64,000 nucleotides of DNA. Origin: Sphingobium sp. TCM1 (GTDB taxonomy: Bacteria > Pseudomonadota > Alphaproteobacteria > Sphingomonadales > Sphingomonadaceae). The DNA lies in assembly GCF_001650725.1 (NCBI RefSeq), contig NZ_LXVX01000034.1, forward strand, positions 62,001-126,000. The letters are read 5' to 3'. The notes under the pieces were generated by a model. It did not search any database. It was not told the DNA's origin and saw only the letters and a list, made by a program, of their open reading frames with translations. Of this stretch, positions 36,285 to 63,711 are shown piece after piece (position 1 is the stretch's first letter; the number at the start of each line of letters is the position of its first letter). A program made the translations under genes and the position numbers.

Positions 36285-36359
36285 TGGCTCCCCGAGTAGG
36301 ATTCGAACCTACGGCCATTCGATTAACAGTCGAATGCTCTACCGCTGAGCTATCGGGGA
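36285..36359 (-). tRNA. tRNA-Asn (anticodon GTT)
   Basis: Read on the minus strand from 36359, the sequence begins TCCCCGATAGCTCAG with a 7-bp acceptor stem closing with TCGGGGA. The D arm, the anticodon loop CTGTTAA (anticodon GTT) and the T loop GGTTCGAATCC are all present. The G discriminator and genomically encoded CCA (36285-36287) complete the 75-nt gene. It is the last clearly core feature before the accessory block, and tRNA genes are frequent integration sites. Confidence 0.96.
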
Positions 36360-36535: not shown

Positions 36536-36958
36536 ATGTGGCTCCCATTTCAGGATACGTCTAAAACAATTTTGCTATTCGTATCGGATGAAGCAAGAAA
36601 AACCATATCACGGTATCGCGCTTCGGCAAGAACCTCTTCGATCTGGCAACCGGTTAAATCTGACGCATTTGCTTCCGATGCGCCTCTCTCGTCTCCACGG
36701 GAGCCGACACATGGAATCCGAAAGAGAGAGCGTGACCGTGCGGAGCGCATTAGACTTGCTGGCGGTCCGAAGCCTTCTTTGAGAGAGCGGGCTGTCGCTC
36801 TCGCTCGAGAAAAGGGTGAGGTTCGTACAAAGGACCTCACCGATATCGGCGTTCACCGCTGCTATCTTTCCCGTATGTGTGTCGAGGGATTGCTGGTGAA
36901 GGTCGGCTTCGGCCGATACCGGGCTGCGCGATCTAGGAAGAAGGTTGTGAAAGACTGA
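36536..36958 (+). CDS. AbiEi-type winged-helix antitoxin-like protein, possibly a remnant
   Basis: The last about 65 residues ('LRERAVALAREKGEVRTKDLTDIG', then 'HRCYLSRMCVEGLLVKVGFGRYR', split here for length) look like the N-terminal winged helix of AbiEi-type antitoxins and related regulators. The in-frame ATG at 36536 gives 140 residues, but the first about 70 are not recognisable. The true start may be later, for example TTG 36779, or the gene may be a fragment. No toxin gene follows. Base composition is more AT-rich than the core genome. Confidence 0.35.
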   Translation: MWLPFQDTSKTILLFVSDEARKTISRYRASARTSSIWQPVKSDAFASDAPLSSPREPTHGIRKRERDRAERIRLAGGPKPSLRERAVALAREKGEVRTKDLTDIGVHRCYLSRMCVEGLLVKVGFGRYRAARSRKKVVKD

Positions 36959-37750: not shown

Positions 37751-38190
37751 ATGAAATCCGCACTGCTGCTTCTGGCTGTCGCTTCGGCGGTCGCAATCGC
37801 CCAAGCGCCGGTTCATCAGGATGACGCCGCGCTCTACGAAAAGCACGACTGGTTCACCCTGCGGGACCGCATCACCGCTGGAACCGCAAAGGATTCGCTC
37901 GCGATTGGCGCCACCGCTGTGGCGTTCGGCGATGAGGCGAAGGCGCGGGCGCATCTGCAACCGCTGCTGGCGGGCAAACAGGCAGCTGAAGCGCATGGTT
38001 GGCTCAGCTATATGGACCTGCGCAAGGGGCATTACCGAGCGGCGGCGGCGCACATCGCGGCGACCGATCCGAGCAACCCCAATCCGCTCGCCGAGACGTT
38101 CCGCACGCTTACCGATCAGATCACTGCCGCCATGGCGCCCGCGACGATCCGATATCGCATTTTCCAGCATAAGCTGTTCGTCCCCGATCG
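37751..38190 (+). pseudogene. Truncated secreted protein, probably a retropepsin-like aspartic protease N-terminus
   Basis: ATG 37751 starts a signal peptide (residues 1-18) and a TPR-like helical region ('AFGDEAKARAHLQPLLAG', 'AHGWLSYMDLRKGHYRAAAAHI'). It then reaches 'IRYRIFQHKLFVP', the strand that in retropepsin-like proteins precedes the DTG active site. Homology ends at about 38190: the stop of the reverse-strand DUF4010 gene is at 38192-38194 and the frame continues only through its antisense. The protease domain is therefore missing. The family call is inference; the abrupt junction is directly visible. Confidence 0.5.
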
Positions 38191-38191
38191 A

Positions 38192-39484
38192 TCAGTGCAA
38201 GATGATGGGCAGCATCAGCAAGCTGGCTGCGACGCTCGCAATCAGGGCCATGGCGGCGGACCAGCCCCGATGTTTTCCGGCCAGGCTGACCGTGGCTCCG
38301 GCCTTGACGAGGGTGTTGAGAATGACCGGGGCGGCCAGAATGAGGCCCGCCGTTCGTCCGTCGAGCACGCCCTTTGGCAACCCACCCATCGTGATGATGG
38401 CGGAATCGACATCCACCATCCCCGACAAGGCGAGAACCGTGGCCAAGCCGGCGTCGCCAAACCGATCGAGTACCCAGCGCGACGCCAACGACAGAACCAT
38501 CACCAGCGCCATGAGGCTGAGCGCCGGCGCAAGGTTGAACGGGTTGCGAACCGGAACTTCCTGGCTGGACGATGAGGGCAGTTGCGCCGCCGCCCGGAGA
38601 TGCCAGCCCGTGGCGAGGGCGCTGATCAGCGCCGCGGGCGCGACCAGCAGCGCAAGCGCCGGTAGCGCGTAAGGCGCCAGCACGCCCACCAGCACCAGCA
38701 CGCGGACCAGCATGACGACGGAGGCGGTGGTGATTCCCGCGATGAGAATAGGACCATTTTCCGCACCGTCGCGCAGGCGCGTCGCCAAGGCGGCGGTAAC
38801 CGCCGTGGACGAGACCATGGCGCCGGCAGCTGCCGTCGCAAGTGTCCCGCGCGAGGCGCCGAGGCGCTTGCTGGCCACATAGCCGGCGAAGGAAAATCCC
38901 GACACGAGGACGACCACCATCCACAATTGCCGCGGATTCCAGGCATCGTAGGGACCATAAGCGCGGTCAGGCAGGAGTGGCAGGATGGCGAGCGAGATCA
39001 GTGCGAAACGGGCGATCGCGCTTACCTCGACCTCGCTTAGCCGCCCGATCCAACCGTGAAGCTGCGAACGGAGCGCAAGCACCAGCGTCATCACGACAGC
39101 GACGATCGTGGCGAGGCGTTCCTGCGGGGCGGTCGCGAGGAACCCGCAGCCGAGCGTCAGCAGCCCGGCAAGGCTCGCTGTTCCGCTGACCGGTCCGCCA
39201 CGCCATGCCGCCTGCGCATATCCCATCAGGACCAGCATGGCCGCCGACGCGATCAGGATGATCGCCACGCCGGGCTCGATCGACCGAAGGGCGCCCGCGA
39301 CGCCGCCGGCCAGCCCCAGCAGCCCGAAGGTCCGGATGCCCGCGAAGCGGGAGCCGGCCGGTTCATGGCGCAAGGTCCAGCCACGCTGGACGCCGATGAG
39401 CAGGCCAAGGGCCAGCGCCAGCGCGATGCCGGCTATGGTAGTAACACCCCCGGCCGCCGCAAAATCCATCTCAAACGCCGTCAC
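38192..39484 (-). CDS. MgtC/SapB plus DUF4010 membrane protein
   Basis: A 430-residue polytopic membrane protein. The N-terminal MgtC-like region (GLLIGVQRGW, then RTFGLLGLAGG) has about four helices. The DUF4010 region adds about eight more, with 'GAMVSSTAVTAALATR' and 'LALSGMVDVDSAIITMGG' as landmarks. Transport or stress function is unknown. Its start is GTG 39484 with GAGGA about 7 nt upstream; ATG 39469 is an alternative. It is divergent from the P-type ATPase, and its 3' end abuts the truncated gene at 37751. Confidence 0.85.
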   Translation of the reverse strand: MTAFEMDFAAAGGVTTIAGIALALALGLLIGVQRGWTLRHEPAGSRFAGIRTFGLLGLAGGVAGALRSIEPGVAIILIASAAMLVLMGYAQAAWRGGPVSGTASLAGLLTLGCGFLATAPQERLATIVAVVMTLVLALRSQLHGWIGRLSEVEVSAIARFALISLAILPLLPDRAYGPYDAWNPRQLWMVVVLVSGFSFAGYVASKRLGASRGTLATAAAGAMVSSTAVTAALATRLRDGAENGPILIAGITTASVVMLVRVLVLVGVLAPYALPALALLVAPAALISALATGWHLRAAAQLPSSSSQEVPVRNPFNLAPALSLMALVMVLSLASRWVLDRFGDAGLATVLALSGMVDVDSAIITMGGLPKGVLDGRTAGLILAAPVILNTLVKAGATVSLAGKHRGWSAAMALIASVAASLLMLPIILH

Positions 39485-39647
39485 TTATATCCTCGGTTCT
39501 GAATGCAACGTCGTCCAAGGGCAACTCGATGCCACCGTATGACCCGACGAAAATGCAAATATCCATTGGCTGCGGGTAGCACCAAGGCCACGGTGCCAAT
39601 CTTGGCTGGCACAATAGGACAACAGGAATGACGATCACCGAAATCCG

Positions 39648-39662
39648 TAAGTACCCGTAATG
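39648..39662 (+). promoter_or_regulatory. TAAGTACCCGTAATG motif upstream of the P-type ATPase
   Basis: It contains two CCGTAA hexamers in direct repeat (CCGTAA-GTAC-CCGTAA) and starts with TAAGTA, as do motifs at 48997 and 52230. It lies 84 nt before the ATPase start and between divergent island genes. It could be a response-regulator binding site. The call rests on resemblance only. Confidence 0.25.
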
Positions 39663-39745
39663 TGTCGGTAGTCGGCCTACGCCAGAATGGCCCGGAACAG
39701 GGAGGCGACGCAGGACGTCGCGCACTTCGAACAGGAAGACGATGG

Positions 39746-42334
39746 ATGCCGACGGCCACCGACCAGCGACCTACCGCGCCATCCCGGTCCGGGCTGACCG
39801 CGACGGAGGCCCGGCGACGCTTTGATGCCCAGGGACCGAACGAACTGCCAAGAACAGGGCGACGCACGGTGCCGCATATTCTCGCTGAAGTTGTCCGGGA
39901 GCCGATGCTGGCGCTGCTGCTCGCCGGCGGCGTCGCCTATATGCTGCTGGGCGACCTCGGCGAAGCGCTCATCCTCCTCGGCTTCGCGACCTTTTCGATC
40001 GGCATCACGGTGATCCAGGAAAGCCGCACCGAGCATGTTCTCGAAGCGTTGCGCGACCTGTCGGCGCCGCGTGCCCTGGTAATACGCGACGGAACCCGCA
40101 TCCGCATTGCCGGGCGCGAGGTAGTCGAAGGCGATCTGCTCGTCCTTGAGCAGGGCGACAGGGTCGCCGCCGACGCGATGCTGGTCTCGGCGGACGATCT
40201 TCAGGCCGACGAATCGCTGCTTACCGGCGAGTCTGTACCGGTCCGCAAGCAGCCGGCGCTTCAGGGCGAGGAGTTGCTGCAGCGACGGCCGGGCGGGGAG
40301 GATCAGCCGCTCGTCTATTCGGGCTCGCTCATCACCCGCGGCTCGGGGCTGGCGCTGGCGATCGCGACCGGTCCGCGCAGCGAGATCGGCAAGATCGGCC
40401 AGTCGCTCTCGACGCTCGATGCCGAGCCGCCGCGCCTACGCCGGGAAACCGCCCGGATCGTCCGGCTCTGCGCGATCGGCGGCGGCTTCGTCGCCCTCCT
40501 TGTCGTCCTGCTCTTCGGGCTCCTGCGCGGAGGATGGATCGACGCTCTGCTCGCGGGAATCGCGATCGGCATGTCCATGCTGCCGGAGGAGTTCCCGGTG
40601 GTCCTCACGATCTTCCTCGCGATGGGGGCATGGCGCATCGCCCAAGCCGGGGTTCTCACGCGCCGGGCGGCCGCCATCGAAACGTTGGGTTCCGCGACCA
40701 TATTGTGCACCGACAAGACGGGGACCTTGACCGAGAACCGGATGGCGGTGACGGAGCTGTGGCTCGCGTCGGGCGAGATCGGCGCCGTCGATGGCATGAC
40801 CGTGCTGTCACCTCGCTTTCACGAGTTGCTGGATGCAAGCATCCTCGCAAGCGCGCCGGTGCCGGTCGATCCGATGGAGGTCGCCTTTCACCAGACGGGC
40901 GCGGCCATTCCCGAACTGGCCAAGCGCCGTGCCGGGTTAAGTCTGGCCCATAGCTACGGGCTGCGTCCCGAACTGCTGGCGATGACGAATGTCTGGGAAA
41001 CCTCCGACCCCGAGGCAGCCTGCACGGTGGCGGCCAAGGGCGCGCCGGAGGCGATCGCTGCGCTCTGTCATCTGTCGTCGGCCGAGCGATCTCGTCTGGA
41101 GACCGCGGTCGACACCATGGCGCAGCGGGGCATGCGGGTGCTCGGTGTCGCAACGGCATCGACCAGCCCTGGGAGCGCCTTGCCGGAGTCTCAGCAGAAC
41201 TATGATTTTGCCCTGATCGGTCTGATCGGCCTCGCCGATCCCTTGCGCGCCAGCGTGCCGGCCGCCGTCGCCGAATGCCGCAGCGCCGGGATCAAGGTCG
41301 TGATGATCACCGGCGATTATGCGGCGACCGCGCGGACTATCGCGACGCAGGCCGGAATCATGGACGGCGACGTGCTGACCGGGACCGACCTCGCTGCCCT
41401 GGACGACGCGGCCCTTGCCGAACGGCTGAAGACGGTGACCGTTTTCGCGCGGATCATGCCCGAACAGAAACTGCGGATCGTGACGGCGTATAAGGCGGAG
41501 GGCGAAATCGTCGCGATGACAGGCGACGGGGTCAATGACGCCCCGTCGCTCAAGGCCGCGCATATCGGCATCGCGATGGGCAAGCGCGGCACCGATGTTG
41601 CACGGGAAGCCTCGGCGATCGTCCTGCTCGACGATGATTTCGGGTCGATCGTCAAGGCGGTGCGGCTCGGGCGGCGCATCTACGACAATATCCGCAAGGC
41701 GATGGCGTTCATCTTCGCCGTCCATGTGCCAATCGCAGGCCTGGCGCTGCTGCCGCTCGCCTCAGGCCTACCCATCCTGTTCGGCCCAATCCATATCGCA
41801 TTGCTCGAGATGATCATCGATCCTGTCTGCGCGCTCGTCTTCGAGGCCGAGCGCGAGGAGCAGGATCTGATGAACCGTAAGCCGCGTCACCCCGAGGAAC
41901 GGCTCTTCTCGCTGCGCATGATCGGCTGGAGCGTGTTCCAGGGTGGGTTGGGCTTTGCGCTGCTCGCCACAATATTTCTGGCGTCGAGCTACGCCGGTAT
42001 GGCGGAAGCTGATGCGCGCGCGCTGACCTTCTTCTCGCTGATCGGCGTGATCCTCGTGCTGATCCTGGTCAATCGATCGTTCGACACATCGCTCCTTCAC
42101 GCGCTGGTCCGGGGCAATGCGGCCCTGCGCTACGTCCTGGGCGCGGTGGTTGCCGTCGCGGCCGTCGTCATGACTGTTCCCGCGCTGCGGAGCCTGCTCA
42201 AATTCGGTCCGCTCCACGGCCCCGACGTCGCGATCACCATGGGGTCAGCAGCGCTGCTCCTGATTCTGCTCGAGGCGAGCAAGATGGTCCAGTTGCGGCG
42301 GGCCTCACGCTTTGCACGGCAGGCGCGGACGTGA
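39746..42334 (+). CDS. P-type cation-translocating ATPase (P2/Ca-type-like)
   Basis: An 862-residue pump. It has TGES in the actuator domain (near 155), phosphorylation motif DKTGTLTE with Asp323, 'MITGDYAATAR' and TGDGVNDAP in the P domain, and C-terminal transmembrane helices. Membrane motifs are PEEFP in M4 and 'MIIDPVCALVFEAE' in M6, which resemble Ca2+/Mn2+ or mixed-cation P2 pumps rather than CPx metal pumps. ATG 39746 follows AGGAAG. Its stop is 7 nt from the stop of the convergent AI-2E gene. Confidence 0.88.
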   Translation: MPTATDQRPTAPSRSGLTATEARRRFDAQGPNELPRTGRRTVPHILAEVVREPMLALLLAGGVAYMLLGDLGEALILLGFATFSIGITVIQESRTEHVLEALRDLSAPRALVIRDGTRIRIAGREVVEGDLLVLEQGDRVAADAMLVSADDLQADESLLTGESVPVRKQPALQGEELLQRRPGGEDQPLVYSGSLITRGSGLALAIATGPRSEIGKIGQSLSTLDAEPPRLRRETARIVRLCAIGGGFVALLVVLLFGLLRGGWIDALLAGIAIGMSMLPEEFPVVLTIFLAMGAWRIAQAGVLTRRAAAIETLGSATILCTDKTGTLTENRMAVTELWLASGEIGAVDGMTVLSPRFHELLDASILASAPVPVDPMEVAFHQTGAAIPELAKRRAGLSLAHSYGLRPELLAMTNVWETSDPEAACTVAAKGAPEAIAALCHLSSAERSRLETAVDTMAQRGMRVLGVATASTSPGSALPESQQNYDFALIGLIGLADPLRASVPAAVAECRSAGIKVVMITGDYAATARTIATQAGIMDGDVLTGTDLAALDDAALAERLKTVTVFARIMPEQKLRIVTAYKAEGEIVAMTGDGVNDAPSLKAAHIGIAMGKRGTDVAREASAIVLLDDDFGSIVKAVRLGRRIYDNIRKAMAFIFAVHVPIAGLALLPLASGLPILFGPIHIALLEMIIDPVCALVFEAEREEQDLMNRKPRHPEERLFSLRMIGWSVFQGGLGFALLATIFLASSYAGMAEADARALTFFSLIGVILVLILVNRSFDTSLLHALVRGNAALRYVLGAVVAVAAVVMTVPALRSLLKFGPLHGPDVAITMGSAALLLILLEASKMVQLRRASRFARQART

Positions 42335-42341
42335 CACGTGT

Positions 42342-43403
42342 CTATGATGCACCCGGTTCAGGCTGGAGCCGCGAATGTGCGAAGATATCCCATGCAGCGA
42401 TGAACAAGGCCGCCGCCACCGGACCGATCACGAGCCCGTTGAAGCCGAGTACTTGCAGACCGCCGAGGGTGGAGATCAGCACGACATAATCGGGCATGCG
42501 CGCGTCCCGTCCCACCAGGATCGGACGCAGGAGATTGTCCACGAGGCCGATCACGAACAGGCCGCACAGGATCAGAATGACGCCTTCCCAGACCGCGCCG
42601 GTCACGAGCAGATAGACGGCGACCGGCGCCCAGACGATGCCTGTCCCGATCGCCGGCAGCAGCGACAGAAACGCCATCAGTACGCCCCAAAGCAAGGCGC
42701 TATGGATGCCCAGCGCCCAGAAGACGATCCCGCCGATGGCACCCTGGATGACCGCAACCACGAGGCTGCCCCTGATCGTCGCCCGAATGACGGCGGCGAA
42801 TTTCGCGAGCAGTGCGGCGCGTTGGTCCGGATCGAGCGGAATGGCCGTTTCAACCCGGGCAGCTACCTGCTTGCCGTCGCGCAACAGAAAGAAAGTCAGG
42901 TAGAGCATGACGCCCAGGGCGACGACGAAGCCGAAGGCGCTCTGGCCGATGCTGAATGCTCGCGCCGTCAGGGTCTGGAAGCTGGCGGCGATCCCGGCGG
43001 TCAATTTGGTCCGGACGGTCTCGAAATCGCTCAGGCCCAACCCTGACAACAGCGACTTCAGCCATTGCGGCAGATGTGCCTGGAACCGGAGGAAGTAGGC
43101 GCCGGGATCAGCCTCGCCGCTTTGCATTCGCGCGTAGACGCCCGCCACCTCCTGAAGCAGGAACGCAGAAAGCAGGATGGCGGGGAGGATCACCATCGCC
43201 ATGATCACGAGCAGCGTCAGCAGAGCGGCAAGGTTGTTCCGCGTCGGCATCGCACGCAGCAGGCGATCGTTGAGAGGCGCGAAGAGGATCGACGCGATGA
43301 CGCCCCAGAGAATGGCGCCGAACAGCGGCTGCACGATCCACGCAAAGGCCAGCGACACGGCCAGGATGAGCACAGCAAAGCTCGTGTCCTCGAGGCGGCG
43401 CAT
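42342..43403 (-). CDS. AI-2E/YdiK-family transporter
   Basis: A 353-residue membrane protein with about eight helices. Family features are N-terminal 'FAVLILAVSLAFAWIVQPLF', the amphipathic periplasmic segment around 90-170, and 'VIGLVDNLLRPILVGRDARMPDYVVLIS' near the end (28 residues, shown as landmarks VIGLVDNLLRP and GRDARMPDY). The family exports or permeates small molecules such as AI-2 or ions. ATG 43403 lies just after the upstream gene's stop; a GTG at 43445 would overlap it. It is the last gene of the minus-strand operon from 44267. Confidence 0.85.
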   Translation of the reverse strand: MRRLEDTSFAVLILAVSLAFAWIVQPLFGAILWGVIASILFAPLNDRLLRAMPTRNNLAALLTLLVIMAMVILPAILLSAFLLQEVAGVYARMQSGEADPGAYFLRFQAHLPQWLKSLLSGLGLSDFETVRTKLTAGIAASFQTLTARAFSIGQSAFGFVVALGVMLYLTFFLLRDGKQVAARVETAIPLDPDQRAALLAKFAAVIRATIRGSLVVAVIQGAIGGIVFWALGIHSALLWGVLMAFLSLLPAIGTGIVWAPVAVYLLVTGAVWEGVILILCGLFVIGLVDNLLRPILVGRDARMPDYVVLISTLGGLQVLGFNGLVIGPVAAALFIAAWDIFAHSRLQPEPGAS

Positions 43404-43413
43404 ACGCGGTCCG

Positions 43414-43752
43414 TCAGGCCCTGTCGTGCGCCGCCGCGCTTGCACATCGGATGCACTGTGCGGCGGCGGGCAGCGCCTCGAGCCGTGTCGGCGCGATCAG
43501 CTCCCCGCACATGGTGCACAGGCCATAGGCGCCCGAGTCCAGCCTTGCGAGCGCCCGTCGCGTCAGGGCTATTTCCGTCAGCGCCGACCGCTCGACGGCA
43601 TCAAGTGCTTCATCGTCTTCGCGGGCGATCGCCTGCTCTTCGAAATCATCATCGAGAGGCTGGCCCTGCTCATCCTCGATGCGGCCGACCTGGGCGCTCA
43701 GCTCGGAGAGCTGATCGGTGAGACGCCGGCGTATGAGATCGACATCCGGCAT
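43414..43752 (-). CDS. DksA/TraR-family C4 zinc-finger protein
   Basis: This 112-residue protein has a coiled-coil N-terminal half ('LIRRRLTDQLSELSAQVGRI') and a C-terminal Cys4 zinc finger (CTMCGELI ... CIRC). DksA/TraR proteins bind the RNA polymerase secondary channel and tune promoters during stress. It is shorter than housekeeping DksA and sits in a stress-type operon, so a specialised paralogue is likely. Its ATG overlaps the DUF465 stop. Confidence 0.85.
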   Translation of the reverse strand: MPDVDLIRRRLTDQLSELSAQVGRIEDEQGQPLDDDFEEQAIAREDDEALDAVERSALTEIALTRRALARLDSGAYGLCTMCGELIAPTRLEALPAAAQCIRCASAAAHDRA

Positions 43753-44000
43753 CACACGTCCTGTCTGTCCGCGATCATCTCCGCGACCTCATCGAGCAGG
43801 GTCAGGCGCTGCTTTTTCAGGTCTTCGAGCCGATCATCGGAAGCGGCGTCCAGTCCGCCTTCGATCCGAGAGATCTGCTGGGCCAACTCATGGTGGCGAT
43901 CGGCCAGGAAGCGGTAATGTGCGCTCTCCAGTTTCAGGGCGTGAAGGATTTCCCGCTGCGCGGGAAACAGGGCATGTAGGTCGTGGCCAAGTTCACTCAT
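43752..44000 (-). CDS. DUF465 (YdcH-like) small helical protein
   Basis: This 82-residue, highly helical protein matches the YdcH/DUF465 family ('FLADRHHELAQQISRIEGGL', 'LKKQRLTLLDEVAEMI'). Such proteins form antiparallel coiled coils; their function is unknown. The stop overlaps the next gene's start, and the upstream gene ends 15 nt before its ATG at 44000, showing operon organisation. Confidence 0.85.
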   Translation of the reverse strand: MSELGHDLHALFPAQREILHALKLESAHYRFLADRHHELAQQISRIEGGLDAASDDRLEDLKKQRLTLLDEVAEMIADRQDV

Positions 44001-44015
44001 CTTCTCTCCGATCGA

Positions 44016-44267
44016 TCATTGGACGTGCATAAAGTTGCCGCTCGGGGGCTGCTGCGCCAACGCGTCGAGCGGCGACATCATGCCGCCAGCCGCTCCTGAC
44101 ATGCCGGCGGTGTCATCGCGCGCGCGCCGCACGGCCAGCAACCGATGTTGGTAGCGCCTGACGAAGTCCTGATGAACGTAATGGGCTTCGGGACAGGCCG
44201 TGACGCGGGCCAGTGCCCGATGTGAGCAGCAGCGACGCAGCAGGTAGGAAATCTCGGGATCATCCAT
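44016..44267 (-). CDS. Small hypothetical protein leading the DUF465/DksA/AI-2E operon
   Basis: An 83-residue protein not recognised. The N-terminal half has Cys/His/Arg residues ('SYLLRRCCSHRALARVTAC'), and the C-terminal half is Gly/Ala/Met-rich. ATG 44267 has AAGGAGG 5 nt upstream, a very good ribosome-binding site, so translation is likely. It is the first gene of a four-gene minus-strand operon. Confidence 0.65.
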   Translation of the reverse strand: MDDPEISYLLRRCCSHRALARVTACPEAHYVHQDFVRRYQHRLLAVRRARDDTAGMSGAAGGMMSPLDALAQQPPSGNFMHVQ

Positions 44268-44316
44268 GACGGGCCTCCTTCGACCAGAGGATGGCGTCAC
44301 GCGAGGGGGGTGTCGC

Positions 44317-44330
44317 TACGTGAATTCCCG
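44317..44330. promoter_or_regulatory. TACGTGAATTCCCG motif upstream of the DUF465/DksA/AI-2E operon
   Basis: It lies 50-63 nt before the first gene of the operon (start 44267, minus strand). It resembles the TAAGTATAGTTCCCG motif at 48997 (shared TA-x-GT-x-A-x-TTCCCG pattern). A FixJ/LuxR-type regulator is encoded, now interrupted, right beside it. Resemblance only. Confidence 0.25.
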
Positions 44331-45037
44331 CAGGAGCTGATCGAAGGTCGCATTTGTAGAGAGAGGCTTCCATGCCGAGCCAGCATCCTGCCGTGGCCCG
44401 GTAGGGCTATGCCCCTGGCGCGTGCGAGGGTCGTGCGATCCCGACATCGGGCAGCTTGTCGCGCTGTGCGAGGACGACGTCGATCAATGCGGGAAGGCTC
44501 GGCACCGCAAGCTTCCGCATCAGCCGCGCGCGATGGATTTCGACCGTTCTGTGGCTGATTTCCAGCTCTCGCCCGATTTCCTTGTTGGTAAGCCCGTACA
44601 GCAGCCAGGCCACAACTTCACGTTCCCGGGCGGTCAGCCGATCGATGTTTCTGGCAATGGTTGTCGGCGTGCGCGGTCTGGGCCTGCTCGTCGCCAATCG
44701 GATTGCCGCCAGAAGGCGCTGTTCGGACAGCGGCTTTTCAAGAATATCGACCGCGCCGGCCCGAATGGCGGCGACACCAAACGCGAAGTCGGGCGCCGCT
44801 TTCGAGAGCAGAACAGCTTGCACCGACCCGCGCGTGCGAAGGGCAGCGATGGCACCGGGTACATCATCCTGAAGGTTGTCGGCGTCGAGTAGGACGATAC
44901 CCGGTGCCAACCGCGCCGAAGCCAAAAGAAAGGCGTCAAGGGTGGCAAAGCAACGAGAGGCACCATCGTTCAGCGCCGACTTCACTTTGAACCGTCCCGG
45001 CTTTTCCGGAGGCTCCTATCTGTGAGAAGGAGCCACG

Positions 45038-45364
45038 ATGAGCGCTACAAGGAACAAGTTTTCGCCTGAGTTTCGTGACCGTGCGGTGCGGATGGTCGAG
45101 GAGCATCGAGGGGACTACCCATCGGAGTGGGCGGCGATGACCTCGATAGCCGGGAAGGTCGGCTGCACGACCGAGACGCTGCGCCGCTGGTGCCGTGAGG
45201 AGGCGAGCCGACGAGCGGGGCCAGCGGCGCAGGCTGTCAGTGAACGTGATCGGGTCAAGGCACTGGAGCGCGAGGTCAAGGAACTGCGCCGGGCGAACGA
45301 GATCCTGCGAAAAGCCTCGGCATATTTTGCGCAGGCGGAGCTCGACCGCCACGGCAAATGGTGA
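45038..45364 (+). CDS. IS3-family transposase OrfA
   Basis: This 108-residue protein has an N-terminal helix-turn-helix ('[19 protein letters not shown]', '[17 protein letters not shown]') and a leucine-zipper-like C-terminus ('[20 protein letters not shown]'). It binds the element ends. It overlaps orfB by 7 nt; the overlap AAATGGTGA allows coupled reinitiation, and no classical A6G slippery site is seen. Confidence 0.95.
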
Positions 45365-46266
45365 TGTCGTTCATCGACGCTCACCGGGAAGAACTGGGTA
45401 TCGAGCCGATCTGCCGGGAACTGGCGATCGCCCCGTCTTCCTACCACGAGCATGTTGCCCGCCTTGCCGATCCCGGCAGGCGCCCCGCCCGTGCCCGGCG
45501 CGACGACGAGATGCGCGCGGCGATCAAGCGCGTCCACGAGAGCAGCTTCGGTCTCTATGGTGCCCGCAAGGTCTGGCACCAGATGCGCCGTGAAGGGATC
45601 AAGGTGGCCAAGTGCACCGTGGAGCGGCTGATGCGCGCCATGGGCCTAGCAGGCGTGCGCAGAGGCAAGACGACGGTGACGACCATCAGCAACCCGAAGG
45701 CCCCGTGTCCGCTGGACAAGGTCAACCGCGAGTTCAAGGTCAGCCGGCCCAATGCCCTGTGGGTGGTCGACTTCACTTACGTCCATACCTGGGCCGGGTT
45801 CGTCTACGTCGCCTTCGTGATCGATGCCTTCGCACGCCGGATCGTGGGCTGGAAGGTCAGCACCAGCGCCACGGCGAGCTTCGTGCTGGATGCCCTGGAG
45901 CAGGCGATCCATGCCCGCAGGCCAAGTGCTGACGATGGCCTGATCCACCATAGCGACAGGGGCACCCAATACCTTGCCATGAACTACACCCAACGCCTGG
46001 CAGAGGCCAATCTGGTGCCCTCGGTCGGCAGCGTCGGCGACAGCTATGACAACGCCTTGGCCGAGACCATCAACGGCCTCTACAAGGCCGAAGTCATCTG
46101 GCGACAGCGCTCATGGGCGGGCGTATCGGCTGTGGAAATGGCAACGCTGCACTGGGTGGACTGGTTCAACAATCATCGTCTGTTCGGCCCCATCGGACAC
46201 ATCCCGCCAGCCGAAGCCGAAGCCAACTACTATGCAGCCAACAAGACCCTCGATATGGTTGCATGA
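45358..46266 (+). CDS. IS3-family transposase OrfB (DDE integrase)
   Basis: This 302-residue catalytic subunit has an HTH_21 region ('[20 protein letters not shown]') and an rve integrase core. The catalytic triad is D138 (VVDFTY), D200 (HHSDRGTQY) and E236 (LAETING) with D-35-E spacing, so the enzyme looks functional. The start ATG overlaps the orfA stop. Confidence 0.95.
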
Positions 46267-46535
46267 CTCAAATGAAAATGCCTCCGGGAAAGCCGGGGCG
46301 GTTCACTTCAGGGTACGGGTCGCTGCCAATACAGTAGATTGTGGGAGTTCCCACAGGCGCCGATAGTTTGTTCACCGTCCCGCCTTTCCACTCCAACCCT
46401 ACGAAAAGGACTGTGGGCATGTCATACGCAATGCTACGGACACTCGCCGGGAAAATACGCATGAGTTCGAGTGAGCAAGGCCCGCTCCTTGCCGCCGATG
46501 CATCCGCCGTTGGCGAGAAACGGCGGCTTGTCGGA

Positions 46536-46813
46536 TCATCCGACGATGTCGATCGAGCAGTGCATCGCCTCGCCGCAGAGGGCGATCAGCACCTGATAAG
46601 TGGAACTTTCGTACCAACCGGTCGCGGCCGCATGGTCGGCAAAGAGAAAATGGCGCCATGCGTGTACGCGGCACCGTTGCTGAGCCCGAAAAGCGGACCG
46701 AGCCCAGGCGCCGCACCACCGTGCGTGGCCACCGTCGCGAGGGCCTTCTGGCCATATTCGGCAAGCTTGTCAGCGTCGATCGGCGTAGAGAGGAAGACGA
46801 CGATGGCGGTCAT
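46536..46813 (-). pseudogene. DUF1330 family gene with a frameshift
   Basis: From ATG 46813 (AAGGATG upstream) the frame reads 'MTAIVVFLSTPIDADKLAEY' and continues in a DUF1330-like way to about residue 40. The family's C-terminal part ('FADHAAATGWYESSTYQ', then VLIALCGEAMHC) is found in another frame and stops at TGA 46536-46538. The 278-nt span is not a multiple of three. A single indel around 46640-46690 explains this, and a full protein would have about 92 residues. DUF1330 proteins are small ferredoxin-fold proteins of unknown role. Confidence 0.6.
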
Positions 46814-47153
46814 GAGAAAACATCCTTGTAAAAGAATAAGCGGTCGATCGGGACTGGAAAAGGCGACGCAGCCGTCATGTGCTCTCCTCATCACGGGAGG
46901 TCGGCGCTAGGTGCTGCGGTGCATAATCTCCCACGATGCCCATCCAGGTGTTGGAGATGAAGGCCGGATTGCGCTGATGGAGCGCATGATCGGCAGCGCC
47001 GCCAGACTCAGGCTTCAGCACCTGCACGTCATTATAATCGCCACCATTCTGCGCTTGGAGCGGGCTCGGCCCGGCGTTCTGCTCATCGAGGATCCGATGG
47101 ATGAAATCCCCAGCGGCCTCGAACCGCTATCTCGGTTCCGGCATCGATCACCG
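46814..47153. other. Interval without a confident gene
   Basis: About 340 bp between the DUF1330 remnant and pldA. On the minus strand about 80 codons are open from 47121 down to TGA 46875-46877, with sensible composition ('GFHP'-free, containing NPAFISNTWMGIVGDYA), but no start codon, no ribosome-binding site and no recognised family. It could be the 3' end of a decayed gene. Confidence 0.35.
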
Positions 47154-60922: not shown

Positions 60923-61091
60923 GGACGGTCTCATCCAAGGCCGTTGCCGCTCGTCACCTGGCTCCTCGGGGCCGCCGAATTCGCGGACGAACTCTCCCGC
61001 CAGGCGGGTAAGACGTAAGCGCAAAAACCTCCCCACATTTTCGTAAGCGCTGATCTGGCTATGTTTCGCCCCTCGTCTGAGGGGTATCGTA

Positions 61092-61514
61092 GTGGCCGAT
61101 GATATAAGTACATTCGAAACAGGTTTCGAAAGGCAGGAGGGCCATCGGCCCTCGCGTATGGACGTCATTCCAGCAGGGCCGATGCGGCGTCGCTGGTCGG
61201 CCGAGGCCAAGGCCCGGATCATCGCGTCGAGTTTTGAGCCCGGCGCCAACATCGCAGAAATTGCGCGAACGCATGGACTGCTGCCACAGCAGCTTTATGC
61301 GTGGCGGCATGACAGTATTCCGGGCAAACGCCTGGCCAGCAAGAAGCTGGGCTTTGTCCCGGCGGTGATCGAAGATGCTGGCGGCACCGGCTCGGCTGAT
61401 GGTGGAGGCGATGAGATCGTGATCCGCACGGCCGCCCTCGCGATCCATGTGCCGCCGGGCGCGAGCGAGGATCATATCGCTCGGGTGCTCGCCGCTGTGA
61501 GCCGGTCGGGATGA
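61092..61514 (+). CDS. tnpA: IS66 accessory protein TnpA
   Basis: This 140-residue protein has a helix-turn-helix ('RRRWSAEAKARIIASSFEPG', 'IAEIARTHGLLPQQLYAWR') of the IS66 OrfA type. The start is GTG 61092. The stop overlaps tnpB by 4 nt. Confidence 0.93.
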   Translation: MADDISTFETGFERQEGHRPSRMDVIPAGPMRRRWSAEAKARIIASSFEPGANIAEIARTHGLLPQQLYAWRHDSIPGKRLASKKLGFVPAVIEDAGGTGSADGGGDEIVIRTAALAIHVPPGASEDHIARVLAAVSRSG

Positions 61515-61864
61515 TTATCCCGCCAGGGCCGCTCAAGGTGATGGTGGCGACAAAGCCGGTCGACTTCAGGAAAGGCGCCGTCAGCCTGGCGGCGCTGGTC
61601 GAGCATGAACTCGGGCTCAAACCCTTCTCGGGGGTGGTCTTCATCTTCCGCTCGAAGCGGGCGAACAGGATCAAGCTGCTGGTCTGGGACGGCACTGGCC
61701 TGGTACTTGTGAGCAAGGTCTTGCAGATCGGAGGCTTTCATTGGCCCCGGGCGCACGATGGCGTGATGCGGCTGTCGGCATCGCAAGCGTCAGCCTTGTT
61801 CGAAGGGCTGCAATGGTCGAAAATGCACACGCCGCGCACTCAGGCTCCGGTGACGACGCGATAG
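61511..61864 (+). CDS. tnpB: IS66 accessory protein TnpB
   Basis: This 117-residue protein has the IS66 OrfB pattern 'KPVDFRKGAVSLAALVEHEL' and 'FSGVVFIFRSKRANRIKLLVWDGTG' (in part). It is required for IS66 transposition; its biochemical role is not well defined. Overlaps tnpA (ATGA). Confidence 0.95.
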   Translation: MIIPPGPLKVMVATKPVDFRKGAVSLAALVEHELGLKPFSGVVFIFRSKRANRIKLLVWDGTGLVLVSKVLQIGGFHWPRAHDGVMRLSASQASALFEGLQWSKMHTPRTQAPVTTR

Positions 61865-61931
61865 GTCGCACGCCTGATTCCCCTGATCGAAATGCCATTG
61901 CGGATCGCTCCCAAACTGCCAGAAATGGGGC

Positions 61932-63491
61932 ATGTCCGCCACGGCAACCGACCTTCCTGACGATGTCGCCACCCTCAAGGCGATGGTCCTGGCCGGCCTC
62001 GAGCGTGAAGCTCGGATGCAGCACATCATCGACCAGATCACCCGCACGACATTCGGGAAACGGTCGGAAAAGCTGAGCGAAGATCAGTTGGCGCTTGCCT
62101 TCGATGATCTCGACGTCGCCCGTGCTGAACTGGAGGCGCTTGGCGAGCAGGCGGCAGGTCAGAAGAAGGAACGGGCGCGGAGGGAAAGCGGGACTGCGCG
62201 GGCGTCGCTGCCGGCGCACCTGACCTGCGTTGAGGAAGTGATCCTTCCAGGCGAAACGGAATGTCCGTGCTGCGGAGGCGCGCTGCACTGCATAGACAGC
62301 GACATATCGAGCCGGCTCGATGTCATCCCGGTCCAGTATCGCGTGATCGTGACGTTCCGCCCGAAAATGGCGTGCCGGGCGTGCAGCGATGGCGTGTTCC
62401 AGGCGCCCGCGGCCAAGCATGTGGTGCCAGGCGGCCTGCCCACCGAGGCGCTGGTCGCCGATGTGCTGGTCAAGAAATATGCCGATCACATGCCCTTCTA
62501 TCGGCAGGCCCAGGCATTGCGGCGTCAGGGTATCGAGATCGACCGGGGAACCATGTGCAACTGGGCGGGTCGAGCCGCCGCCTGGCTCGGCCGCCTGACC
62601 AACAGGATGAAAGCCGACCTCCTAACGAGCGCAAGGCTGTTCGTTGATGAGACCACCGCCAAGGTCCTGGCACCCGGCACCGGCAAGGTGAAGACGGGCT
62701 ATCTCTGGGCGATCGCGCGTGATGATGGGGCGCATGGCGGCACCGATCCACCGGCGGTCGTCTACACCTACATGCCGGGTCGCGGGAAAGTCTGGGCGGA
62801 AAAGCTGCTCGGGGATTTTACCGGCATCGTTCAGTGCGACGGCTATGGCGCCTACAAGCATATCGAGGTGCCGGACCGGAAGGGTGGTCCTGGAACGCTC
62901 GCCTTCTGCTGGGCGCATGTCAGGCGTGGCTTCTTCGACGATGCCAAGGGTGGCAACGCTCCGGTCGCCGATGAGGCGCTGCGGCGGATCGCCAGCCTCT
63001 ACAAAATCGAGGCGCGTATCCGAGGTTCCAGCCCCGAACACAGGTTGGCGGTCCGCCAAGCTGAATCCGCTTCGATCATCGCGGACATGCTGCCTTGGCT
63101 TGAGGAAATGCTGCCCAAGCTGCCCCGAGGATCCAACACGGCCGAAGCCATCCGCTACACCCTCAACCACTGGAAAGGCCTCGTCCGCTTCCTTGAGGAT
63201 GGGCGGATCGAGCTGGACAACAACACCGTCGAGCGATCAATCAGGCCGCTTACGCTCCAGCGTAAAAATGCCCTGTTCACAGGTCATGACCTGGGGGCCG
63301 AAAACTGGGCGACCTTCGCCAGCCTCATCGAAACTTGTAAGCTGGGCGGCATTAACCCCCAGGCTTACCTCACCGATGTCCTCGCCCGCATCATCCTGCG
63401 CGGCGATACAGATCCGATCAATGATCTACTCCCCTACAACTGGGTAGATAGTCGCTCCGTCGCTAGCGCCATTATCGATCAGGCCGCCTGA
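61932..63491 (+). CDS. tnpC: IS66 transposase TnpC
   Basis: This 519-residue DDE transposase has an N-terminal coiled region, a zinc-finger-like CPCCGG ... CRAC segment, and the catalytic core: Asp in LFVDETT, Asp in IVQCDGYGAY, and Glu in 'LDNNTVERSIRPLTL'. The frame is complete. The 67-bp gap to tnpB holds no other feature. Confidence 0.96.
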   Translation: MSATATDLPDDVATLKAMVLAGLEREARMQHIIDQITRTTFGKRSEKLSEDQLALAFDDLDVARAELEALGEQAAGQKKERARRESGTARASLPAHLTCVEEVILPGETECPCCGGALHCIDSDISSRLDVIPVQYRVIVTFRPKMACRACSDGVFQAPAAKHVVPGGLPTEALVADVLVKKYADHMPFYRQAQALRRQGIEIDRGTMCNWAGRAAAWLGRLTNRMKADLLTSARLFVDETTAKVLAPGTGKVKTGYLWAIARDDGAHGGTDPPAVVYTYMPGRGKVWAEKLLGDFTGIVQCDGYGAYKHIEVPDRKGGPGTLAFCWAHVRRGFFDDAKGGNAPVADEALRRIASLYKIEARIRGSSPEHRLAVRQAESASIIADMLPWLEEMLPKLPRGSNTAEAIRYTLNHWKGLVRFLEDGRIELDNNTVERSIRPLTLQRKNALFTGHDLGAENWATFASLIETCKLGGINPQAYLTDVLARIILRGDTDPINDLLPYNWVDSRSVASAIIDQAA

Positions 63492-63711
63492 ATGCCGCCG
63501 AGTGGGGGTGTTTTAGCGCTTACGGTAAGACGGTCATATTTCGCAACCTGAGCGAGGCCGACGACAAAGCGGCGCTGGTTGGCACGGGCCTGTCCGAGGC
63601 GGTGGCGGCAATGCTTGCCCAGTCGGATGCCGCGGCCGGACAGGGCGCAACGACGCCATTGAAGGATGCGATTGCCGCGGCACTGGCTTGTTGAACGCCG
63701 CGCGCCGGCGG

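Follow-up and report, generated by a model that had tools for sequence, protein, structure and literature searches.

An IS3-family element interrupts an orphan, atypical FixJ/LuxR-type regulator gene in an island that Sphingobium sp. TCM1 shares with another sphingomonad genus

Insertion sequences that break regulator genes are commonplace, and a locus of Sphingobium sp. TCM1 raises the question of what such an insertion does to the regulator and to the genes around it. An earlier note on this DNA had proposed that a recent IS3 insertion inactivates a FixJ-type regulator inside its own gene neighbourhood and thereby freezes the expression of neighbouring stress and storage genes. The locus was analysed in a stretch of 64,000 nucleotides (hereafter the window, C34:62001-126000), which lies on a 452,606-base contig of the 5.15-Mb genome (41 contigs). 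The features of the locus are collected in Table 1.

Table 1. Coordinates of the interrupted gene, the inserted element and the genes downstream, in window positions
Feature	Position	Strand	Remarks
Interrupted FixJ/LuxR-type regulator gene	44407..46375	-	GTG start 46375, stop at 44407; intact G150 allele has 215 codons
5′ fragment of the regulator gene	46306..46375	-	70 bases, 23 codons and one base; frame enters the element, giving a 35-aa peptide
3′ fragment of the regulator gene	44407..44987	-	192-aa open frame from the native in-frame GTG at 44985
IS3-family element, 1318 bp	44988..46305	+	terminal repeats, target-site duplication, transposase domains
Left terminal inverted repeat, 26 nt	44988..45013	+	24 positions matching
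Right terminal inverted repeat	46280..46305	-	
Target-site duplication CTT, left copy	44985..44987	.	single CTT at the G150 empty site
Target-site duplication CTT, right copy	46306..46308	.	single CTT at the G150 empty site
OrfA (HTH_Tnp_1, PF01527)	45038..45364	+	open frame, domain match
OrfB transposase (HTH_21, rve; D138, D200, E236)	45358..46266	+	open frame, domain match
Small downstream gene without a Pfam hit	44016..44267	-	ATG 139 bp past the regulator stop, AAGGAGG before the ATG
Tightly packed DUF465, DksA/TraR-like and AI-2E-transporter-like genes	42342..44000	-	order kept in G005, G034, G040 and G150

The element is bounded exactly by inverted repeats (TGAACCG.../...CGGTTCA, matching at 24/26 positions) and by CTT duplications at both sides, as had been claimed. 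The two open frames overlap by 7 bases, with OrfB in the -1 frame. OrfB scored 295.9 bits against the NCBIfam IS3 transposase model (cut-off 160), with catalytic residues in D-61-D-35-E spacing, and OrfA alone scored 40.9 bits against the IS3 model, whose cut-off of 160 is set for the fused protein. The TGA...TCA ends, the 3-bp duplication, the two overlapping frames and the DD(35)E integrase core are those of the IS3 family, and nothing in the element is notable against that family.

A single full-identity copy of the element was found in the TCM1 genome, the next full-length copies being at 82% and 68%. Because no other full-identity copy was found, misassembly at a repeat is unlikely, and no recent burst of the element was seen in this genome. 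In the family sample, for which two candidates were scored per genome and closer copies may have been missed, 31 of 397 genomes matched the element (E <= 1e-100, TCM1 included), with the best outside copy at 87%. The element alone matched 66 plasmid records, the best full-length copies being at ~82%. A search with the region of the element gave two plasmid records matching at 90-99% identity; none of the best 60 of the 66 records (coverage x identity) in the element-only search lay in that range, and these matches therefore cover a small part of the element. The genome, genus, family (two candidates per genome) and plasmid searches gave no other full-length copy above 87% identity, and since no closer copy was found, the element probably came from outside the present genome. 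It would at most be a new IS3-family element, with its nearest full-length copies at 87% in the family sample and 82% in the plasmid records.

When the flanks were bridged in silico, one long minus-strand frame ran over the junction (285 codons stop to stop), the single other frame listed there having 22 codons. Removal of the element and one CTT copy restores the 215-codon gene that the earlier note had described (PYPEV joined to KSALNDG), with the limits given there (46375 and 44407) and interrupted at codons 23/24. The intact allele was also read directly: in G150, a genome of another genus of the same family, the unmodified sequence holds an intact 215-codon gene with a single CTT at the site, i.e., the empty site. 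The G150 gene differs from the two fragments in the window by one base. Because the Sphingobium orthologs encode the residue of the window at this position, the single change lies on the side of G150, and no decay is visible in the window fragments.

The surrounding island is nearly identical in the two genomes. The blocks aligned between the window and G150 (1,648, 6,810, 14,714, and 25,694 bp) contain 35 mismatches in 48,866 aligned bases (0.07%). G150 retains the empty site in this near-identical island, so that the insertion postdates the spread, or the very recent common origin, of this version of the island. The intact copy in another genus thus dates the IS3 insertion and confirms, at the level of sequence, the recency that had been proposed.

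Further blocks common to the TCM1 genome and G150 measure 23,196 bp (98.5% identity) and 7,977 bp (99.8%). Altogether, ~84 kb of C34, from window position 36539 to C34:182377, past the right end of the window, is common to G150, mostly at 99.8-99.9% nucleotide identity, with one 23-kb block at 98.5% and with separate insertions in each copy. To judge by these identities, this ~84-kb stretch is a recently transferred island. An IS66-type element (window 61015-63523; DDE_Tnp_IS66, 519-aa frame; 8-bp duplication GGTAAGAC) is missing from G150, whose island is otherwise 99.9% identical and has insertions of its own of ~5.5 kb (G150:C1:1878965-1884481) and ~2.5 kb (1931682-1934194) that are not in the island of the window. 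A tRNA-Asn (36285-36359) lies close to position 36539, where the shared block starts on the left; as to tRNA-linked integration, three pieces of G150 and one of TCM1 were scanned besides the window, and none of them showed a tRNA. Plasmid records gave no island-wide match to window positions 38000-44900 (best, 9% of the query at 76%), and none was found in a protein search of these records for the regulator ortholog (E <= 1e-20).

The regulator gene is rare in relatives. With the 192-aa fragment as the query, 4 of 94 genomes of the genus matched (E <= 1e-30), namely TCM1 and, at 81%, G005, G034, and G040; the matches were 2 of 397 in the family sample (TCM1 and G150; E <= 1e-30) and 1 of 396 in the order sample (TCM1; E <= 1e-40), with seven candidates scored per genome in both samples. 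The three Sphingobium relatives carry an intact 81% ortholog. Since their loci are ~99% alike or more over 3.5 kb, they amount to about one independent witness. A TAA inside these three orthologs was considered as a lesion and rejected, being the stop codon of the gene itself at the match end. The relatives might have carried the same insertion, or the genome a functional second copy of the regulator. The insertion is present in none of the four other genomes with an ortholog (G005, G034, G040, and G150), all of which have the intact allele, and no match to the fragment in the TCM1 genome, apart from itself, exceeds 43% identity; six of these matches span both domains, at 35-42%, the canonical FixJ of the island among them. 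The genome G044, labelled as the same species, matched neither the fragment nor, at E <= 1e-50, the right flank, and has an AI-2E homolog at 61% only; the island appears to be absent from it. A related IS lies in G044 at C2:514298-515618, coordinates that recur in record NZ_CP081002.1, and G044 is therefore very probably Sphingobium sp. V4.

What kind of regulator was interrupted? Its HTH matched PF00196 at 70.6 bits (cut-off 23.5), and the receiver of the intact ortholog reached 22.2 bits, below the Pfam cut-off of 30.2, with residual homology at E 1.6e-4. The best PDB sequence match was FixJ (5xso/5xt2), over the full length (E 6.4e-17). Against the FixJ equivalog NCBIfam NF006900 (cut-off 255), the regulator scored 109.4 bits, well below the model's threshold, and the canonical FixJ of the same island 240.6 bits, slightly under it. 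Like FixJ, the regulator has a receiver and a LuxR-type HTH and keeps the positions of the phospho-acceptor aspartate and the conserved lysine. Unlike FixJ, it lacks the acidic pair at the end of beta-1 (IGSD/IGNE in the orthologs vs IVDDE in the island FixJ) and four residues after it, and has Ser/Ala where the canonical paralogs have Thr. The acidic pair is present in the island FixJ and in four paralogs aligned with it; these are four others of the six FixJ-like matches, L007 being left out. In addition, no kinase domain was found beside the regulator among the window genes scanned on both sides, a subset of the open frames. Structure prediction of the intact ortholog (mean pLDDT 52.7, >70 in parts of the HTH region only) was too poor to use. 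For the intact gene, dN/dS between G150 and G034 was 0.21 (receiver part 0.24; HTH part 0.14), which indicates that the regulator was functioning and under purifying selection.

From these features, we class it as an orphan FixJ-like regulator of an atypical kind. WhiI of Streptomyces, an atypical NarL/FixJ-type regulator, has a degenerate phosphorylation pocket according to passages of PMC4125116, and the present regulator resembles WhiI and BldM, as these passages portray them, in being orphan and atypical. It is probably not controlled by ordinary phosphorylation (compare WhiI). Unlike WhiI and BldM, the present regulator is not a conserved developmental regulator but a rare accessory-island gene in sphingomonads.

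The neighbourhood is of the storage and stress type, as the earlier note had it, with a thiolase, SDRs, a cation ATPase, and DksA-like and AI-2E-like genes. A PHA synthase-like protein lies past the right end of the window (540 bits, under the class I model cut-off of 622.65), together with frames that we take, by eye, to be AckA-, Pta-, and Hsp20-like. About 27 kb from the regulator, the stretch common to TCM1 and G150 also encodes the canonical FixJ, an intact FixL (two PAS, HisKA, HATPase), and a single receiver. This set, at C34:134582-137575 (L053:8582-11575), adjoins the PHA synthase-like gene and the Pta-/AckA-like frames. FixL-FixJ pairs are also described on plasmids of Sphingobium hydrophobicum C1, where passages of PMC6783567 propose horizontal acquisition in Sphingobium, as for the pair here; those passages concern FixL-FixJ pairs, whereas the interrupted regulator is an orphan.

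We consider it likely, with good confidence, that the IS3 element inserted into an orphan, atypical FixJ/LuxR-type regulator gene of a transferred island after the split from the G150 copy, very probably abolishing the full-length protein. An IS3-family element, probably from outside, would have inserted at codons 23/24 with a 3-bp duplication, once this version of the island had separated from the near-identical copy in the other genus. Loss of the full-length protein follows from the interrupted frame: translation from the native start would end after 35 residues. The remaining 192-aa frame starts without the initial 23 residues of the protein, which correspond to the beta-1 strand in the alignment to FixJ, and is separated from the native start region. 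The first effects would be expected on the regulator's own targets, and oxygen-type control of the island, if any, would more likely rest on the intact FixL-FixJ pair, which may suffice for it. As to the proposed inactivation, or "knockout," the broken full-length frame bears it out and functional loss of the regulator is likely, but the 192-aa frame left over still encodes the complete DNA-binding domain, so that the term goes further than the sequence does.

The main effect could instead be polar, the element separating the native promoter from the small gene, DUF465, DksA-like, and AI-2E run downstream. This run is on the same strand, its order is conserved, and its last three genes overlap one another. 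However, a gap of 139 bp with its own AAGGAGG stands between the regulator and the run, for which a promoter of its own is plausible, and a 14-base block in this gap is identical in TCM1, G005, G034, G040, and G150. A mainly polar effect is possible, although we think it unlikely; it is at least as open a possibility as that of the regulator governing its neighbours. Separately, the AI-2E gene (42342-43445) has a dS of 0.11 against G034, much lower than the 0.29-0.57 of the other compared genes, which suggests local recombination at this gene.

It is doubtful that the stress and storage genes nearby are under the control of this regulator and that its loss would freeze their expression. The regulator does sit among such genes, and the four other genomes keep its nearest neighbours in the same order. 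A block of 29 bases upstream of the regulator is unchanged in G150 and in two of the three Sphingobium relatives, and the third relative differs at one of 21 bases tested. However, when the window and a further 16 kb (80 kb in all) were scanned, the two conserved blocks adjoining the gene gave weak matches elsewhere but no good second copy. Of two candidate binding-site motifs, CTACGTRAA matches the window once, at the site next to the regulator gene, and TACGTA nowhere. The degenerate receiver, the lack of a kinase among the neighbouring genes scanned, and the canonical FixL-FixJ intact in the same island also speak against such control, and this part of the earlier proposal is not upheld.

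A third reading would have the gene freed rather than nulled, the 192-aa product from GTG 44985 binding DNA constitutively without the N-terminal part of the receiver. In this frame the GerE/LuxR HTH is complete and the receiver largely so, and the end of the element places GGGACGG six bases upstream of this GTG, in a context that resembles the native leader at 13/14 bases; an in-frame stop lies 11 codons upstream, inside the element. According to passages of PMC4549865, the freed output domain of NarL and, by citation, that of FixJ are constitutive at some promoters, yet narG could not be activated by the output domain of NarL on its own. A match of two copies of a leader over 14 bases can also be chance, and the partial receiver may misfold (structure prediction of the fragment, with a mean pLDDT of 41.5, was too poor to judge folding). 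In addition, a scan of positions 43900-46900 on both strands for the sigma-70 consensus only gave no promoter-like site, against 0.7 expected by chance; the two terminator-like sites in the same scan were not above chance. We regard a constitutive product as quite improbable, and still more so a true switch, in which the leader given by the element end would yield a receiver-damaged, constitutive DNA-binding form with targets altered rather than lost.

It is likewise very unlikely that the insertion is neutral debris in a gene that had already begun to decay into a pseudogene, since, although the protein changes faster than AI-2E (81% vs 96%) and the receiver is degenerate, the frame is open in 4/4 relatives and dN/dS is 0.21. 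Because dS is also high (0.52 for the regulator vs 0.11 for AI-2E), much of the faster protein change is not relaxed selection.

Within the terms searched, no title or abstract opening in the open-access literature described such a case. In sum, loss of the full-length regulator through the IS3 insertion would be an IS disruption of an ordinary kind for which an exceptionally good natural control exists. The case documents ~49 kb common to two sphingomonad genera at 99.9% identity, and the near-identical islands with and without the element in these genera would offer a good natural comparison for testing what a FixJ-like regulator of this rare, atypical kind does.
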